64,000 bases of DNA, from positions 4,143,501 to 4,207,500 of the forward strand of contig NZ_CP082966.1 in NCBI RefSeq assembly GCF_019968605.1, in the 5' to 3' direction. Positions 7,862-55,012 of this stretch are shown one piece after another; within the stretch, counting starts at the first letter, position 1, and the number at the start of each line of letters is the position of its first letter. Position numbers and translations under genes: made by a program. The notes under the pieces were generated by a model that was given only the letters and a program-made list of their open reading frames with translations, made no database searches and had not been told where the DNA came from. This DNA comes from Polaribacter litorisediminis (lineage in GTDB: Bacteria > Bacteroidota > Bacteroidia > Flavobacteriales > Flavobacteriaceae).

Positions 7862-9151
7862 TTAAAATTGATAGGTAAGGCCAGAGTAGATTCCTAGATA
7901 AAAAGGTGCAAAATTATTAGCATTTTCGTTAAAAGTATTGAATTGAACTTTTAACATCGGGTTTACATGTAGAGACCAATTTTTATTGAGAAGGTAATTA
8001 AAATCAAATCCTAAATTTCCACTAAAATTGAGCGTATTTAAGTTGGATGCTTTTCCTGATGTTGATAGGTTGTCGGCATTTAAACGAATACTATTTTTAT
8101 TTAAAAGTAATGAACTGAATCCCGTTACGATTTGTGTTTTAAAAATTTCACTATTAGAAAGGTTATATTTTAATTCAATAGGTATTTCTACATACCCATA
8201 ATTTTGAGTTATATTTCCGTTATAGCTTATTGCATTGGTGATGGAGTTTTCACTAATACCAGCATTTTCATAATTGTTTCTATGAAAAGAAAAAGAAGCT
8301 CCACTTATAAATTCAGTACTAGCGCTATTGGTTTGTGAAGAAGAAAAAACAGCGATTTGGTTGTTAGAAAAACTCATTTCTTGTAGATGAATTCCAGATT
8401 GAATCGTCCATTTTTTATTGATATTATAAGCAACTTGCACACCATAAGAAAAACTATTTTCTCCTTTTGTAGAGTTGGCTAAATTGGCATCAATAGGAGA
8501 TGTGTTTGAAAAAGAGTTGGATTTTAGAACGGCGAAAACAGGAGCAATCGCCCAGTGATTTGAAGTTTTTTTATCAACTTTTAAAGAATCTTTTGGCTTT
8601 AGAAAAGTAGTAATATCTATTTTTTTCAAGGCTAATCCTGTATGTATATTTTTAGTGATTTCAATGATACTTTTTTCTTGAAGTGAAGCTATGTTCACCT
8701 GAATTTTCAAAGGTTTTGGCGCAAGATTTTTAATGAGCCTTTTAGGAATAGGAACTTCTTTTTCTTTTTTTGCGATAACAGCGTTTTCTTTATTTTTTTG
8801 ATTTTTTAAACGCACATCTTTTTTAGTGATGAGAACTTCTTCTTTTATGTTTTTATTTATGATGATCGCATCAATTTTATCCTCTAAATTTTTTGTTTTT
8901 TTGGGAGTTATCGTAATTATTTCATCAGAATTACTTTTTGTATTTTGGTTTTCATCCTTTAAAAAAGGAAAAATAAAAAAAACTAAAACAACTATAGAAG
9001 CCACACCCGTTGAAAATAACCAAAAAGGAAACATACGGCGTTTCTTCTTTTTAAGTTTCGTTTCAATATGGCTCCAAACTCTTTTATTTGGTGCAGTTTC
9101 TAAATTTTGCAACTGTTTTTGAAACAGTTCATCTATTTTTTTTTGATCCAT
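7862..9151 (-). CDS. Membrane-anchored protein with C-terminal beta-barrel, partner of ECF sigma factor
   Basis: A 429-residue protein with a ~40-residue cytosolic N-terminus (ending KKKKRRM), one membrane segment (about 42-64), a Lys-rich linker (about 65-195) and a C-terminal region of alternating amphipathic strands ending in aromatic Phe, as in PorT-like outer-membrane beta-barrels. The layout recurs in Bacteroidota next to ECF sigma genes, where the N-terminus may bind sigma. Its ATG overlaps the sigma stop codon (TAATG), so translation is coupled. Anti-sigma activity is inferred from position; the barrel is supported by strand pattern only. Confidence 0.75.
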   Translation of the reverse strand: MDQKKIDELFQKQLQNLETAPNKRVWSHIETKLKKKKRRMFPFWLFSTGVASIVVLVFFIFPFLKDENQNTKSNSDEIITITPKKTKNLEDKIDAIIINKNIKEEVLITKKDVRLKNQKNKENAVIAKKEKEVPIPKRLIKNLAPKPLKIQVNIASLQEKSIIEITKNIHTGLALKKIDITTFLKPKDSLKVDKKTSNHWAIAPVFAVLKSNSFSNTSPIDANLANSTKGENSFSYGVQVAYNINKKWTIQSGIHLQEMSFSNNQIAVFSSSQTNSASTEFISGASFSFHRNNYENAGISENSITNAISYNGNITQNYGYVEIPIELKYNLSNSEIFKTQIVTGFSSLLLNKNSIRLNADNLSTSGKASNLNTLNFSGNLGFDFNYLLNKNWSLHVNPMLKVQFNTFNENANNFAPFYLGIYSGLTYQF

Positions 9152-9687
9152 TAAGTAAACTTTTTTTGATGGATTTCTACTTTCTCTTTTAAAATTTTTT
9201 TTGCTCTAGATAAGTTTGATTTTGAAGTTCCTTCAGAAATTTTTAACAAGCTTGCAATTTCTTTATGAGAGTACTCATCAAGCACATATAAATTAAAAAT
9301 TAATCGATATCTATCGGGTAACTGCTGCACAAAACCAAGTAAAACATCCATGCTAAAAAGGGTTTCTTCTAAATTGAACGCTTCATTTTCAGATTCATTA
9401 GCAACTTCTTTTACAATTTGTAAGGGTGTTTTTTCTCTATATTTTTTTAAAGCGGTATGAATGGTAATCCGTTTTAACCAACCTTCAAAAGATCCGTTGT
9501 GTTTGTATTGTTTAATTTTATCGAAAATTGTTAAAAAACTATCTTGTAGATTGTCTTCTGCATCTTGGTAATTTCTAGAATATTTTAAAGAAACACCAAA
9601 AAGCTTATCAGCATAAAGCTGATAAACTTTAGATTGAGCATCTAAATCTTGCTCACAACATTTTTGTATAAGTGCTTCGAGTTTGAT
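9151..9687 (-). CDS. ECF-type sigma factor with a non-standard start codon
   Basis: The open frame encodes about 178 residues with complete sigma-70 regions: region 2 (SLKYSRNYQDAEDNLQDSF, then GSFEGWLKRI) and region 4 (LPDRYRLIFNLY, EYSHKEIASLL, SNLSRAKKILKEK). There is no ATG, GTG or TTG in frame upstream of region 2. The frame opens after a TAA at about 9697 and offers only ATT (9696), ATC (9687) or ATA. I chose ATC at 9687 because the next residues (K-L-E-A-L-I-Q-K) resemble family N-termini. The first in-frame ATG (9351) would keep only region 4. It lies 4 nt after a lipoprotein gene. Either an unusual start or a start-loss mutation. Confidence 0.75.
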   Translation of the reverse strand: MKLEALIQKCCEQDLDAQSKVYQLYADKLFGVSLKYSRNYQDAEDNLQDSFLTIFDKIKQYKHNGSFEGWLKRITIHTALKKYREKTPLQIVKEVANESENEAFNLEETLFSMDVLLGFVQQLPDRYRLIFNLYVLDEYSHKEIASLLKISEGTSKSNLSRAKKILKEKVEIHQKKFT

Positions 9688-9691
9688 GCTT

Positions 9692-10096
9692 CTAATTTAC
9701 GGGAACTACAAATTCTTCGAAAATATTTTCTCCGTTACTATCTGTTCCTTTCCAAAATTTAAAAACATAATCTTCTTCTTGGCTTACATTTACCACAAAT
9801 TTATATTCTTCTTGAACAATGACTTCTGCACAATAGACATCTAAAGAAACCAAGGCGCGCGCGGCAACAATTCTTGTGGTATCTTGATACTCATAATATA
9901 GGTTGTTAAAGGCATAACAACTGTTTGGTAAAGTGTATTTAATAGCAATTGTATCTTGTTCGCCAAACGTAAAACTTGCGGGTACATTAGCTTCGTCAAT
10001 GGGTAAAAGCTCGTATTTAAAAATAGGTTCATTGTCATTTAAACAGGAGCCAAATAGCACAATGGCCAGACATAAAATGGTAAATTTTTTAAGCAT
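9692..10096 (-). CDS. Small lipoprotein, unknown function
   Basis: A 134-residue protein with a lipoprotein signal peptide whose lipobox ends at Cys18 (LFGSC). The mature region is acidic and strand-rich (PASFTFGEQDTIAIKYTLP), with no recognised domain. It is the last of five lipoprotein genes in the operon and lies just 4 nt before the likely start of the sigma factor, implying co-transcription. Envelope location is inferred from the lipobox. Confidence 0.75.
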   Translation of the reverse strand: MLKKFTILCLAIVLFGSCLNDNEPIFKYELLPIDEANVPASFTFGEQDTIAIKYTLPNSCYAFNNLYYEYQDTTRIVAARALVSLDVYCAEVIVQEEYKFVVNVSQEEDYVFKFWKGTDSNGENIFEEFVVPVN

Positions 10097-10112
10097 AATT
10101 TTTGTTTTTTAA

Positions 10113-10829
10113 TTAGTATATAAGTGTTGGGTAACTATTTACGCAGGCTACAGCTATTGGTTGTGCAGTAACACTACAATCAGAAATAATACCCCATTTG
10201 CGATTAAATTCTTTTTCTGATTGGGTATAAATTTCAATTTTCTTTAAAAATTCTTCCGTATTCATATTTTTAGAATACGCCATAAATCCTTGAGGACCGC
10301 CACAAGCTTTAGATCCGTAGGCCGTAAATGCCCAATTTGATGCATCAATACAAGAAGTAGCATATGCTAAATTCTGAATTTCATCAAACAAAGCCATTAA
10401 ATTTCTATGCTCTTTTTCTTGCTCTGTAAATTCTCTTTTTAAGGTCAAAGAGTTTTCAGAGAGATCAATTACAAGATAGTTGTACCTCAAAATAGGTTGG
10501 ACTCCTATAATTTCCATGTTATATTGATCATATATTTTTAGATAATTTTCAGATAAAACCCAAGTCCCTGATTGCTCAAAAAACGTTAATGGAGGTGTGC
10601 CACAAAAGCCAGAAGTTAGTTCTGTAAAAGAACCATCTTTTTTAAAAGTAAAACTTCTAGTATCATTTGACAAAGAATTTGCTCTTTTAAAGATTATTGT
10701 TTCTCCGTCATAAAAAGGTTCAATCCAGCTGCCAAGTAGTAAATTATCAGTATCAATGATTATTTCATCACTTTCACAAGAAAAGAATACCGTTGCAATC
10801 AATAGTAAAAATAGTGGTTTTAGTTTCAT
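10113..10829 (-). CDS. Lipoprotein with lipocalin-like segment
   Basis: A 238-residue protein with a lipobox at Cys18 (VFFSC). After it, a segment beginning LLGSWIEP with a beta-strand pattern (FTFKKDGSFTE, SGTWVLSENYLKI) resembles the small lipocalin-like domains common in Bacteroidota lipoproteins. The C-terminal ~90 residues contain several Cys (C-I-D-A-S, KACGG, SDCS, ACVNS) that may form disulfides. Gene spacing is 3 nt from the upstream lipoprotein gene and 16 nt to the next. Function unknown. Confidence 0.75.
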   Translation of the reverse strand: MKLKPLFLLLIATVFFSCESDEIIIDTDNLLLGSWIEPFYDGETIIFKRANSLSNDTRSFTFKKDGSFTELTSGFCGTPPLTFFEQSGTWVLSENYLKIYDQYNMEIIGVQPILRYNYLVIDLSENSLTLKREFTEQEKEHRNLMALFDEIQNLAYATSCIDASNWAFTAYGSKACGGPQGFMAYSKNMNTEEFLKKIEIYTQSEKEFNRKWGIISDCSVTAQPIAVACVNSYPTLIY

Positions 10830-51784: not shown

Positions 51785-51806
51785 TCAAGCCGTTTTTGAC
51801 GTCTCA
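51785..51806 (+). repeat. 22-bp direct repeat, copy 1 (before cassette copy 1)
   Basis: TCAAGCCGTTTTTGACGTCT plus CA, identical to 52872-52893. It starts exactly 57 bp before the ATG of the first gene, the same distance as in copy 2. It contains the GACGTC palindrome and may be a promoter, an operator or a duplication junction. Confidence 0.9.
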
Positions 51807-51841
51807 AACCCTTAGCCATATTAATTTTAAAAAGAAATAAT

Positions 51842-52246
51842 ATGGAATTACTTTATGACAGACTAGATTACTGCTTTTTAGCAGACATTTTAAAGAGAAA
51901 TAAACTAGCAAGAGAGGCTTTGGTTTATCTCGTTGATTTTAAGAGACACAAGAACTTAGAAATTAAATTTAAGAAACATTCCATTGAGATTTTTAATGAT
52001 GATGTTTCAGTTTCTATATTTATGTTTCTTGGTTTTGAAAATTCTGAGTACTTAGAAATCAAGAAAAAACCTAATTTTTATATTGTTTGCTTTAATTTTT
52101 ATTCTTTGAAAGTGAATAAAAATAAAAATTTTGTGCAAAATTTAAAATGGCTTGACAAAAATACCTGGTTTTACGCTCTCTTAGAATTTTCTGATGATAG
52201 AATTTGCCAAGATTTAAGAGGTATAAAAAACCTTAATTTAAACTAA
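51842..52246 (+). CDS. Unknown protein, gene 1 of duplicated cassette (copy 1)
   Basis: A 134-residue soluble protein of unrecognised family. Its first 45 residues are very close to the copy-2 protein (YDRL-Y, DILKRNKLARE, VDFKRHK, LEIK), while the C-terminal half has drifted, sharing mainly EFS-D and CQDL near the end. The N-terminus is helical (LADILKRNKLAREALVY), followed by strands. No membrane or signal segment. It is 5 nt upstream of the second gene, so the two are translated from one mRNA. Function unknown; a partner or immunity role is possible. Confidence 0.72.
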   Translation: MELLYDRLDYCFLADILKRNKLAREALVYLVDFKRHKNLEIKFKKHSIEIFNDDVSVSIFMFLGFENSEYLEIKKKPNFYIVCFNFYSLKVNKNKNFVQNLKWLDKNTWFYALLEFSDDRICQDLRGIKNLNLN

Positions 52247-52251
52247 AAAAA

Positions 52252-52797
52252 ATGAAAGAAATAATTGAAAGAATTTTAGAGAAATTAAATACGCTAGAAA
52301 AAGAAGATTTTTATACAGAATATGAGTCTAATAATAAAAAATACAATTACATAACAGATTTTATAAAAACACTTTTTGGTCAAGAAGGAGAAAAGTTAGG
52401 TTATGAATCTGCAGCTCACGAGAATCGTTTTGCCTATAAAGATTTTGAATATAATGAAAGAGAATGGATGTTCGATTTTGTTTGGTATAAAATGAGTGAT
52501 ACGAATGATCAAGTTATGTTAAGTGTTCCTTTAGTTTTAGAAAGCGAATTAAGTAATAAAAGTTTTGGGGGATTAAAAGTTGATTTTGATAAGCTTTTAG
52601 TAGCTTCAGACTCTGATAAAGTTTTTGTTACCTCCTATGACTATCGAAATGAAGAGGAACTAAAAAAGAAAGAAGAATATATTCAAAAGGCAATTAATAA
52701 CTATAATTCATTTAAAGCTGATGAAACTTTATATTTGATTATTTGGGATGAAAATGATACGGGTAAATTTTATTTCAAAGAATTTAAAAAACAATAA
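52252..52797 (+). CDS. Unknown protein, gene 2 of duplicated cassette (copy 1), possible PD-(D/E)XK nuclease fold
   Basis: A 181-residue soluble protein. A helical start (KEIIERILEKLN, then a segment ending FIKTLFGQEGEKLGY) is followed by strand segments with Asp75 (WMFDFVWY), then 21 residues later E97-S-E99 (VPLVLESEL), and later DFDKLLVASDSDKVFV. An Asp strand followed by an E-x-K/E strand is the layout of the PD-(D/E)XK nuclease core; BamHI likewise uses E-x-E. This is a pattern match, not proof. The copy-2 protein has E-x-K in place of E-x-E. The target is unknown. Confidence 0.65.
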   Translation: MKEIIERILEKLNTLEKEDFYTEYESNNKKYNYITDFIKTLFGQEGEKLGYESAAHENRFAYKDFEYNEREWMFDFVWYKMSDTNDQVMLSVPLVLESELSNKSFGGLKVDFDKLLVASDSDKVFVTSYDYRNEEELKKKEEYIQKAINNYNSFKADETLYLIIWDENDTGKFYFKEFKKQ

Positions 52798-52830
52798 TTA
52801 TGTAAGTTTAAATCAAATAAAAACTTATAA

Positions 52831-52870
52831 ATATCCTACAAGATTCAGAAAATCTTGTAGGATATTTTAT
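52831..52870 (+). terminator. Terminator after cassette copy 1
   Basis: A perfect 15-bp stem (52831-52845 ATATCCTACAAGATT; 52851-52865) with a 5-nt loop, followed by a T-rich run. It separates the two cassette copies. A related hairpin with CCTAC/GTAGG follows copy 2. Confidence 0.8.
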
Positions 52871-52871
52871 T

Positions 52872-52893
52872 TCAAGCCGTTTTTGACGTCTCA
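52872..52893 (+). repeat. 22-bp direct repeat, copy 2 (before cassette copy 2)
   Basis: Identical to 51785-51806, and again starts 57 bp before the first ATG of the cassette (52929). The flanking sequence to the ATG is only loosely similar, so the 22-bp block is under constraint or recent. Confidence 0.9.
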
Positions 52894-52928
52894 TACTCTC
52901 TACTAAAATTAATTAAAAAATAAATAAT

Positions 52929-53330
52929 ATGGAACTATTTTATGACAGATTACACTATAACAATTTACTAGATATTTTAAAAAGAAATAAACTAGCAAGA
53001 GAATCTTTAGTTTACATGGTCGATTTTAAAAGACATAAAGATTTAGAAATTAAACCAAAAAGATATTCAATTGAAATTTATAATAAAGATGTTTCTGTTG
53101 TAATCTATCTTTTTAATGGCTGTGTGTATGATGAATATATTGAAGTTAAGCAACAGTTAAATTGTTACATTATAGATTTTAGCCTTTACATATCAGGTCT
53201 TCATAATACAGAGTTTGGAGATTATAATAGAGTAAAATACATAAATATAAATGCATGGATAAATCTAATGATTGAATTTTCAGAAGATAGCTTTTGTCAA
53301 GATTTAAAAAAACTGAAAAAATTATTGTAA
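52929..53330 (+). CDS. Unknown protein, gene 1 of duplicated cassette (copy 2)
   Basis: A 133-residue soluble protein, a paralogue of the one at 51842. Conserved: MELFYDRL, DILKRNKLARE and VDFKRHKDLEIK in the first 45 residues; the middle differs (LFNGCVYDEYIEVKQQLNCY). The DNA here is especially AT-rich compared with hflX, which may hint at transfer. It is 2 nt upstream of its partner. No function is assigned. Confidence 0.72.
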   Translation: MELFYDRLHYNNLLDILKRNKLARESLVYMVDFKRHKDLEIKPKRYSIEIYNKDVSVVIYLFNGCVYDEYIEVKQQLNCYIIDFSLYISGLHNTEFGDYNRVKYININAWINLMIEFSEDSFCQDLKKLKKLL

Positions 53331-53332
53331 AA

Positions 53333-53845
53333 ATGAGAGAAATAATTAGAGAAATTATAGAAGATTTAAATATCGAAGTTAATTACCAACAATATAATTT
53401 GAGAAACCAAAGTGATTTTTATATTAATGAAGTTATTAAAACTCTTTTTGCTACAAAAGGAACGAAACTAGGATATAAAAATGCATCTAAAAAAAATATT
53501 TTAGCAAATTTAGATTTTCTATTTGATGATGTAGTTGCTCAATTCGATTTGGAATGGTTTAAATTAGTTGAGGAAGATAATTTATCTATAAAAACTGTTT
53601 CTTTGGTTTTAGAATCAAAATTAGATAGCTATGATTTTGATGAATTTAAATTGGATTTCACCAAATTTATAGAAGAAAAAAATGCTACTAAAGTTTTTGT
53701 AACTTTAAATAAATCTATTAAAGAAAAAGTGAAATTTATCCAAAAATTAATAGATGATAATATCTTTTTTTCACTAAATGACAATTTATATTTAATAATT
53801 TATTGTCAGAGTGAAAATGGTGAATTTTTATTAAAAGAATTTTAA
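53333..53845 (+). CDS. Unknown protein, gene 2 of duplicated cassette (copy 2), possible PD-(D/E)XK nuclease fold
   Basis: A 170-residue paralogue of the protein at 52252. Start at the ATG 53333, because MREIIREII aligns with the copy-1 start; the frame's earlier TTG would overlap the upstream gene. It has Asp72 (FDLEW) and, 21 residues later, E94-S-K96 (SLVLESKL), i.e. the standard E-x-K motif of PD-(D/E)XK enzymes. Helix FYINEVIKTLF and DFTKFIEEKNATKVFV align with copy 1. Enzyme activity is not demonstrated by this alone. Confidence 0.65.
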   Translation: MREIIREIIEDLNIEVNYQQYNLRNQSDFYINEVIKTLFATKGTKLGYKNASKKNILANLDFLFDDVVAQFDLEWFKLVEEDNLSIKTVSLVLESKLDSYDFDEFKLDFTKFIEEKNATKVFVTLNKSIKEKVKFIQKLIDDNIFFSLNDNLYLIIYCQSENGEFLLKEF

Positions 53846-53856
53846 AAACAATAATT

Positions 53857-53898
53857 TAATTTTCCTACGAGGTTTTTTTTACTTTGTAGGAAAAAATT
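53857..53898 (+). terminator. Hairpin after cassette copy 2
   Basis: TTTCCTAC (53861-53868) pairs with GTAGGAAA (53886-53893), with an inner GAGGTTTTTTTTACTTT loop. Like the copy-1 hairpin it uses CCTAC/GTAGG arms, but it is imperfect. It also lies against the convergent CNNM gene's end. Confidence 0.5.
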
Positions 53899-55012
53899 AT
53901 TTCTCTTTTCTATTTCTAATGATATCCATTTTTTTGGCACGAGCTTTCCAAGATTTTCTTGCATGCGCTTGTAAATCTTCAACAGAGTCGCTTTCGTCCA
54001 TAATTTCTAAACCAAGCAAAGTTTCTATAACGTCTTCTTGAGAAACGAGTCCGCTTACAGATCCATATTCATCTACAACCAAGGCAATATGTTCTTTTTC
54101 TTTAATTAATTGATCAAATAAATCAGGAATTGATGAATCTCTATCGGTAATGATGATATCTCTTTTAATAGAGGCTAAAGTATCCTCTCCTTTTCCGTTA
54201 ATAATAGCTTCTAAGAGATTATTCTTTAAAAAATAACCCGTTACTTCGTCAGGGTTTTCATTAAAAACGGGAATTCTAGAAAAACGCAAGTTTTTATGTT
54301 CATTATAAAAAGAGGCTATGGTTTGGCTTTCATCAGCAATTTCTAAAATGATTCGTGGCGTCATGACATCATTTACTTTTATCTTCTTAAAACCTAAAAG
54401 ATTTCTAATTACCTTACTTTCGTTTTCTTTAAAAACACCATCTTTCTCAGCCATTTCTGTCATCACCAAAAAGCCTTCTCTACTTAAAACACTTCCATGA
54501 CCTTTGCCACCAATCAATTTTGTAGTTAATTGTAAAATCCATAAAATACCCGTGTATTTTAACGGAAAAATCATCAATTTTAAAGTTGTTGCTGTAAAAT
54601 TAGCTAACTGTTTCCAATACGTTGCGCCAATTGTTTTAGGTATAATTTCTGATGCTACTAAAATTAAAATAGTCATCACAGTAGATACGATACCCACCAT
54701 GACATCTTCTGTAATTTTAATTCCTAAAATACTTTTTTCAACGATTCCGTACATTTCTGCGTAGGCAATTTTTGCTTGAACACCCACTAAAATTGCACCC
54801 ACGGTATGTGCAATTGTATTGATCGTTAAAATAGCAATTAAAGGTTTGTCTACATCTCTTTTTAAAATCTCTAATTCGGTTGCATACTCAAGTCCTTCAT
54901 TTTTTTTAAGATTGATAAAAGTAGGTGTTATACTCAATAACACAGCTTCTAAAATAGAACACAAAAATGAAAAAAATATAGAAACGATTGCGTAAATTAT
55001 TAATATTGTCAT
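53897..55012 (-). CDS. CNNM/CBS-domain membrane protein (CorB/CorC type)
   Basis: A 371-residue protein with an N-terminal CNNM (DUF21) membrane domain of about four helices (about residues 1-180) and two CBS domains (about 200-345; for example VNDVMTPRI and HIALVVDEYGSVSGLVSQEDVIE, given in part). Relatives are linked to magnesium/cobalt efflux or to haemolysin-type naming without haemolysis. The C-terminal CorC_HlyC extension is missing or very short. Substrate not determined. It is transcribed towards the duplicated cassette. Confidence 0.9.
   Translation of the reverse strand: MTILIIYAIVSIFFSFLCSILEAVLLSITPTFINLKKNEGLEYATELEILKRDVDKPLIAILTINTIAHTVGAILVGVQAKIAYAEMYGIVEKSILGIKITEDVMVGIVSTVMTILILVASEIIPKTIGATYWKQLANFTATTLKLMIFPLKYTGILWILQLTTKLIGGKGHGSVLSREGFLVMTEMAEKDGVFKENESKVIRNLLGFKKIKVNDVMTPRIILEIADESQTIASFYNEHKNLRFSRIPVFNENPDEVTGYFLKNNLLEAIINGKGEDTLASIKRDIIITDRDSSIPDLFDQLIKEKEHIALVVDEYGSVSGLVSQEDVIETLLGLEIMDESDSVEDLQAHARKSWKARAKKMDIIRNRKEK

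Follow-up and report, generated by a model that had tools for sequence, protein, structure and literature searches.

The locus examined here lies in a window (the whole 64,000-nt stretch of Polaribacter litorisediminis DNA that was analyzed) and consists of two head-to-tail units, A (51785–52867) and B (52872–53894), positioned 3′ of hflX (TIGR03156) and before a convergent CNNM/GldE-like gene on the minus strand (53897–55012) whose family matches were below cut-off. Each unit carries a gene 1 (133–134 aa) followed by a gene 2 (170–181 aa) on the plus strand, including: (i) gene 1A (51842–52246; 134 aa) and gene 2A (52252–52797; 181 aa), separated by 5 nt; and (ii) gene 1B (52929–53330; 133 aa) and gene 2B (53333–53845; 170 aa from the ATG at 53333, which we took as the start, the mechanical ORF list beginning this ORF at a TTG at 53294), separated by 2 nt. 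The initial annotation, which had described a tandemly duplicated two-gene unit after hflX with 2 to 5 nt between the genes of each copy, was borne out, as all four ORFs exist and the DNA of the two units was 73% identical over the first 300 nt at a spacing of 1087. Its description of AT-rich base use also held, with a GC content of 25.3% for unit A and 22.1% for unit B compared with 30.2% for the whole window; the 24 long ORFs of the window averaged 31.7% GC (range 24.8–36.9). When comparing the proteins of the two copies, identity was 54% for gene 1 and 39% for gene 2. The gene 1 proteins, reported to be alike in their first 45 residues, were indeed alike there, and the similarity was found to span the entire protein. 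The rapid divergence described for the C-terminal halves was mild in gene 1; it was gene 2 of copy B that had diverged strikingly.

Each copy had been described as ending in a hairpin. The first hairpin (52829–52867, plus strand) was strong, with perfect 17-bp arms (52829–52845 and 52851–52867) around a 5-nt loop, and is a probable terminator of unit A. The second (53860–53894, assigned to neither strand), in the interval from gene 2B to the CNNM-type gene convergent with it, was present in a shorter form with 9-bp arms (53860–53868 and 53886–53894); it is probably a generic terminator, and perhaps the original terminator of hflX. Since hairpins 3′ of hflX were also seen by eye in relatives that are devoid of the units (e.g., L047, L048, L049, and L058), these structures are not markers of the cassette. 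No tRNAs were found within the window, no exact 9-nt direct repeat was detected within 150 nt around the units, and Rfam returned only sub-threshold snoRNA matches. Inverted matches of 13/15 were present around unit A (one) and around A and B together (four) and not around B; these were dismissed as unit ends because they were A/T-rich or A-rich and had their left sides inside hflX.

A 22-mer that had escaped the initial annotation, TCAAGCCGTTTTTGACGTCTCA, was found to precede each gene 1, in identical form at 51785–51806 and 52872–52893 (plus strand), ending 35 nt 5′ of the start codon in unit A. With up to 3 mismatches allowed, these were the only two matches to TCAAGCCGTTTTTGACGTCTCA in the window (0 in 100 shuffles), and its 20-nt core was detected at only these two sites in the 4.34-Mb genome. 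Fourteen bases of the element, TCAAGCCGTTTTTG, were invariant in all four gene 1 units available as DNA (window A, window B, and the loci L003 and L004 described below), although the gene 1 proteins of these units were down to 32% identical. The distance from the element to the gene 1 start was also similar, at 56 nt in both window units, 51 nt in L003, and 52 nt in L004. Judging from this placement and from a TTG located roughly 40 nt upstream of the start codon, the element may be a promoter or operator. Across 397 family genomes, exact copies of CAAGCCGTTTTTGNNGTC numbered four, in three genomes, and gene 1 followed only the two of the window (reversed control, one match); this ruled out the element as a general regulatory site of these genomes. 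None of 19 viral stretches carrying the element pattern had a gene 1 behind it, and we read these matches as chance.

Based on its sequence pattern and predicted fold, gene 2 is predicted to encode a nuclease of PD-(D/E)xK type whose active site reads D..ExE (D75, E97, and E99, with K114, in gene 2A). The structure model of gene 2A (pLDDT 89.9) displayed helices at 31–48 and 105–116 and strands at 52–55, 76–81, 89–99, and 122–129; the fold core, a mixed four-stranded sheet with flanking helices, was scored as present from this order of elements, not from coordinates. In an alignment of 21 selected rows (both window proteins and 19 rows taken from the best 120 of 211 matches), D75 and E97 were conserved in 21/21 rows and E99 in 20/21, so the site was read as corresponding to D94-E111xE113 of BamHI. 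An acidic residue in place of the motif lysine has precedent among PD-(D/E)xK variants, as described in an excerpt of PMC1189080. Fold searches with the gene 2 model gave scores that were weak taken alone, with BamHI, OkrAI, and BglII, which share the predicted fold, in the top rows. As in BamHI, the predicted ExE strand is followed by a KLL helix, whereas the D-to-E spacing is 22 residues in gene 2 compared with 17 in BamHI. No likeness to BamHI was detected in sequence: gene 2A and gene 2B had no Pfam match at E ≤ 1, the 13 Pfam families matched at this cut-off by 23 gene 2 family members (best no better than E 0.021) included no BamHI family, and no BamHI chain was recovered at E ≤ 10. The gene 1 proteins were likewise without a Pfam match at E ≤ 1; for gene 1A, a degenerate fold resembling that of restriction endonucleases is possible, and a catalytic motif was not seen. 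PADLOC returned no family at E ≤ 1 for any of the four window proteins. Two NCBIfam matches of window proteins (E 0.02) were regarded as chance, as was a match to Rap3T in a PDB sequence search (E 0.002), whose aligned stretch excludes the catalytic residues. Word searches of the literature, which cannot find sequence families, returned no description of the gene 1-gene 2 pair.

Relatives were collected in three ways. Of 141 candidates for gene 2A, protein search gave 23 matches, the query included; for gene 1A, 6 of 13 candidates matched, and 2 of these 6 are the window proteins themselves. Scanning genome contigs with an alignment of gene 2 proteins yielded 5 loci. A gene 1 match in genome G462 (51 aa, two internal stops, E 7.7e-5) was discarded as spurious. 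The pair was found at two of the 5 loci, L003 (Flavobacteriaceae MAG) and L004 (Flavobacterium MAG), with gene 1 directly 5′ of gene 2 at gaps of 3 and 8 nt, and the unit was detected after hflX in 0/29 relatives. Thus, recurrence of the pair at variable locations, which had been proposed as a check, was observed, and the constant synteny with hflX that would have spoken against a mobile cassette was not. The tandem arrangement recurred less clearly, as L003 and L004 come from genomes with a single gene 2 match each and a second tandem was inferred from one metagenomic contig (see below). Overall, the element, gene 1, and gene 2 recur as a block in four units whose surroundings differ, and the unit is an accessory block. 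In a member of the same genus (L057), the hflX-CNNM interval was occupied by a two-gene pair that we take to resemble HigB/HigA; hence this interval seems to accept small modules.

The unit in L003 was found in the form of a cassette. The block of element and both genes is flanked by GTTAGTGGCAAGCAT (1047) on one side and by a near-complement of it, ending at 2076, on the other, and the two other ORF units of the contig each have their own, different GTT...AAC terminal inverted repeats. The repeats of the three units (89–927, 1047–2076, and 2201–2900) are 15 nt long, starting with GTT and ending with AAC, and the inner parts GCGGTTTG and CAAGCCGC are common to some of the sites. Only these three GTT...AAC pairs with at least 13/15 complementary positions at 500 to 1300 nt apart were present, compared with a mean of 0.14 (maximum 1) in 200 shuffles. 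We consider the three units to form an integron-like cassette array. The likeness to integron gene cassettes lies in the private inverted repeats of each ORF unit of this contig; the ends deviate from the integron consensus GTTRRRY, and when the three inter-cassette stretches were folded as DNA the z-scores were −1.87, −2.76, and 0.28, the last no better than shuffles. The integron integrase (TIGR02249) was over cut-off in none of three genomes, that of L003 being a fragmented MAG. In contrast to L003, no ends of this kind flank the window copies, and the one candidate pair in L004 (5113/6213; 13/15) is doubtful; we attribute it to chance, as it starts with GTT but inside the preceding ORF and ends with ACC. 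Some two-ORF integron cassettes encode toxin-antitoxin systems, according to a passage of PMC8618304.

Nine gene 2 relatives from six genomes (L005, L006, L007, L043, L044, L045, L084, L085, and L086) were found without gene 1 in the ORF lists of their loci, and the upstream element was absent from all nine. Restriction or Abi genes were located near four of them: (i) in L005, an ApaLI-like REase (E 6e-87) and a DNA methylase are immediately 5′ of gene 2; (ii) in L006 (Neptunitalea), mrr (E 1.5e-33; 9073–9957) is followed after 43 nt by the gene 2 relative (10001–10525) in an operon-like arrangement; (iii) in L045, hsdS and hsdR are nearby, with hsdR 1.5 kb off and three small ORFs between, two of which match PADLOC PDC-M64; and (iv) in L086, an AbiJ_NTD4 gene (E 2e-13) is about 1 kb away. 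In L004, a DUF6602 gene that is NucC-like in PADLOC (E 4.9e-13) lies 1.2 kb upstream of the element. For comparison, and not as a null model, ten window neighbors had no PADLOC match better than 1e-6 (four weak matches, 4.1e-5 to 9.4e-6). The proposed proximity to defense genes was observed for the four loci listed above and not for L007, L044, and L085, which by eye had ordinary neighbor genes only. By eye, L043 appeared to lie in an integrase/relaxase element, and L084 was near a DUF3800 gene that had no PADLOC match. Four scattered and diverged gene 2 members (L007, L084, L085, and L086) come from a single Desulfurellaceae-labeled MAG, G871.

The initial annotation had favored a conflict cassette. 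An accessory, conflict-type cassette is supported by the predicted restriction-enzyme-fold nuclease, the patchy distribution, the lack of a fixed link to hflX, the cassette form in L003, and the restriction or Abi genes near 4/9 gene-1-less loci. Our preferred reading, to which we assign a probability of about 50%, is that the units are small mobile modules of genome conflict, each composed of a private promoter/operator element, gene 1, and a gene 2 nuclease with gene 1 as its partner. Gene 2A would act as a metal-dependent DNA-cutting nuclease, and gene 1, translated just before it, would be its dedicated partner. Gene 1 most likely would restrain or direct gene 2, as an antitoxin or immunity protein does, while the element would give the unit its own, possibly self-regulated, expression. 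Inhibitor, activator, specificity subunit, and regulator are all candidate roles for gene 1.

A heteromeric restriction-like nuclease, in which gene 1 shares the fold of gene 2 but serves as a non-catalytic subunit required for DNA recognition and the complex cuts foreign or modified DNA with no methyltransferase, is a tentative second explanation that we hold to be clearly less probable. The cassette differs from BamHI-type enzymes in being without a methyltransferase and in having a small partner that is predicted to be co-translated. We find it unlikely that gene 2 serves in DNA repair or in another housekeeping-type process involving nucleic acids and that the pair is ordinary cargo spreading as a cassette. 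The closest viral-library folds to gene 2 are MmcB-like repair proteins and the relatives in L007, L044, and L085 stand alone among ordinary genes, as such a function would suggest; however, the extreme patchiness of gene 2 relatives (2/166 genus and 4/395 phylum genomes), the diverged tandem copies, and the restriction or Abi neighbors argue against it. A known housekeeping fold, named beforehand as evidence against a conflict cassette, was not what the analysis returned for gene 2, which is predicted to be of PD-(D/E)xK type.

Copy B was found to have diverged most in its nuclease. In a leave-one-out comparison, gene 2B broke 28/63 of the positions with a conservation of 90% or more among the other rows. 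Among the 21 other rows, P0023 broke 18/63 and the C-terminally deviant P0012, which was excluded from the reference counts, broke 12/59; the remainder broke 0 to 5, and gene 2A only 2/59. The changes in gene 2B include E71V, W72A, and E99K, the last replacing ExE by ExK and aligning with E113 of BamHI, so that it is a natural counterpart of the classical BamHI laboratory mutation E113K, which cuts poorly and still binds. When five pairs were compared (A, B, L003, L004, and P0026/P0006), each of the six comparisons that did not involve B gave a higher identity for gene 2 than for gene 1, as exemplified by A and L003 (60% for gene 2, 38% for gene 1). This order was reversed for A compared with B and for B compared with P0026/P0006 (gene 2 41%, gene 1 44%), whereas B compared with L003 or L004 followed the usual order. 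Three proteins share the same longest-contig size (2203) and the same source and were therefore taken as one metagenomic contig: P0029, a partial gene 1 resembling that of A (75% identical to A and 42% to B); P0002, a gene 2 resembling that of A (76% identical to A and 40% to B); and P0027, a gene 1 resembling that of B (81% identical to B and 56% to A). If this is a single contig, the A-B tandem predates a lineage split; thus the tandem may be old, with both copies kept as the lineages diverged. In terms of the preferred conflict module, copy B probably represents an old duplicate that was retained and whose nuclease is now largely impaired in cutting, and its role may lie in DNA binding or regulation. 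Since the predicted cutting site is altered in one copy, A and B may be active and tamed versions of one weapon. An extension that we regard as improbable is that the four genes form one system, in which an active A is paired with a cleavage-impaired B that binds the same DNA or partner as antidote or regulator under a shared private operator, B having been kept since before the lineage split; if true, this would be a nuclease defense module whose control subunit is a duplicated, catalytically tamed copy. That the units are decaying remnants, with copy B already dead and copy A not selected, would fit the broken positions of gene 2B and its standing as the AT-richest of the four cassette genes (20.9% GC), but is very improbable given that the four ORFs are intact, copy A is well conserved, and both copies seemingly were kept on the inferred 2203 contig.

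The cassette was further compared with known systems. By HicAB-type criteria, as worded in an excerpt of PMC2701414, it resembles type II toxin-antitoxin systems in having two small genes in one predicted operon (gaps of 5, 2, 3, and 8 nt in the four units). It is also patchy and apparently mobile, has its own upstream element, and forms a two-gene cassette in L003; however, no toxin or antitoxin domain of a known kind was found in it, and nine relatives of gene 2 occur without gene 1. The usual type II toxins are RNases, unlike a restriction-fold nuclease. The cassette was assigned neither to the toxin-antitoxin systems nor to the BamHI family because defining features were looked for and not found. 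NucC, Can2, HamA, Shedu, and Mrr have the same predicted fold as gene 2, several are structural neighbors, and Mrr adjoins gene 2 in L006, yet the cassette has no signaling or helicase gene and matched no PADLOC model. Within Pfam, no family name was found for the gene 2 family, and PADLOC and NCBIfam gave nothing convincing for the four window proteins. With 211 profile matches at E ≤ 0.001, the D..ExE restriction-fold assignment would provide a testable function for some two hundred hypothetical proteins, and the two-gene form with its private element presents a compact candidate defense or addiction module of Bacteroidota. Two gene 2 relatives of about 300 aa, P0062 and P0047, were found to have an additional C-terminal part, which in P0062 has a precomputed assignment to Clp_N (PF02861), which may connect the nuclease with an AAA+ unfoldase.
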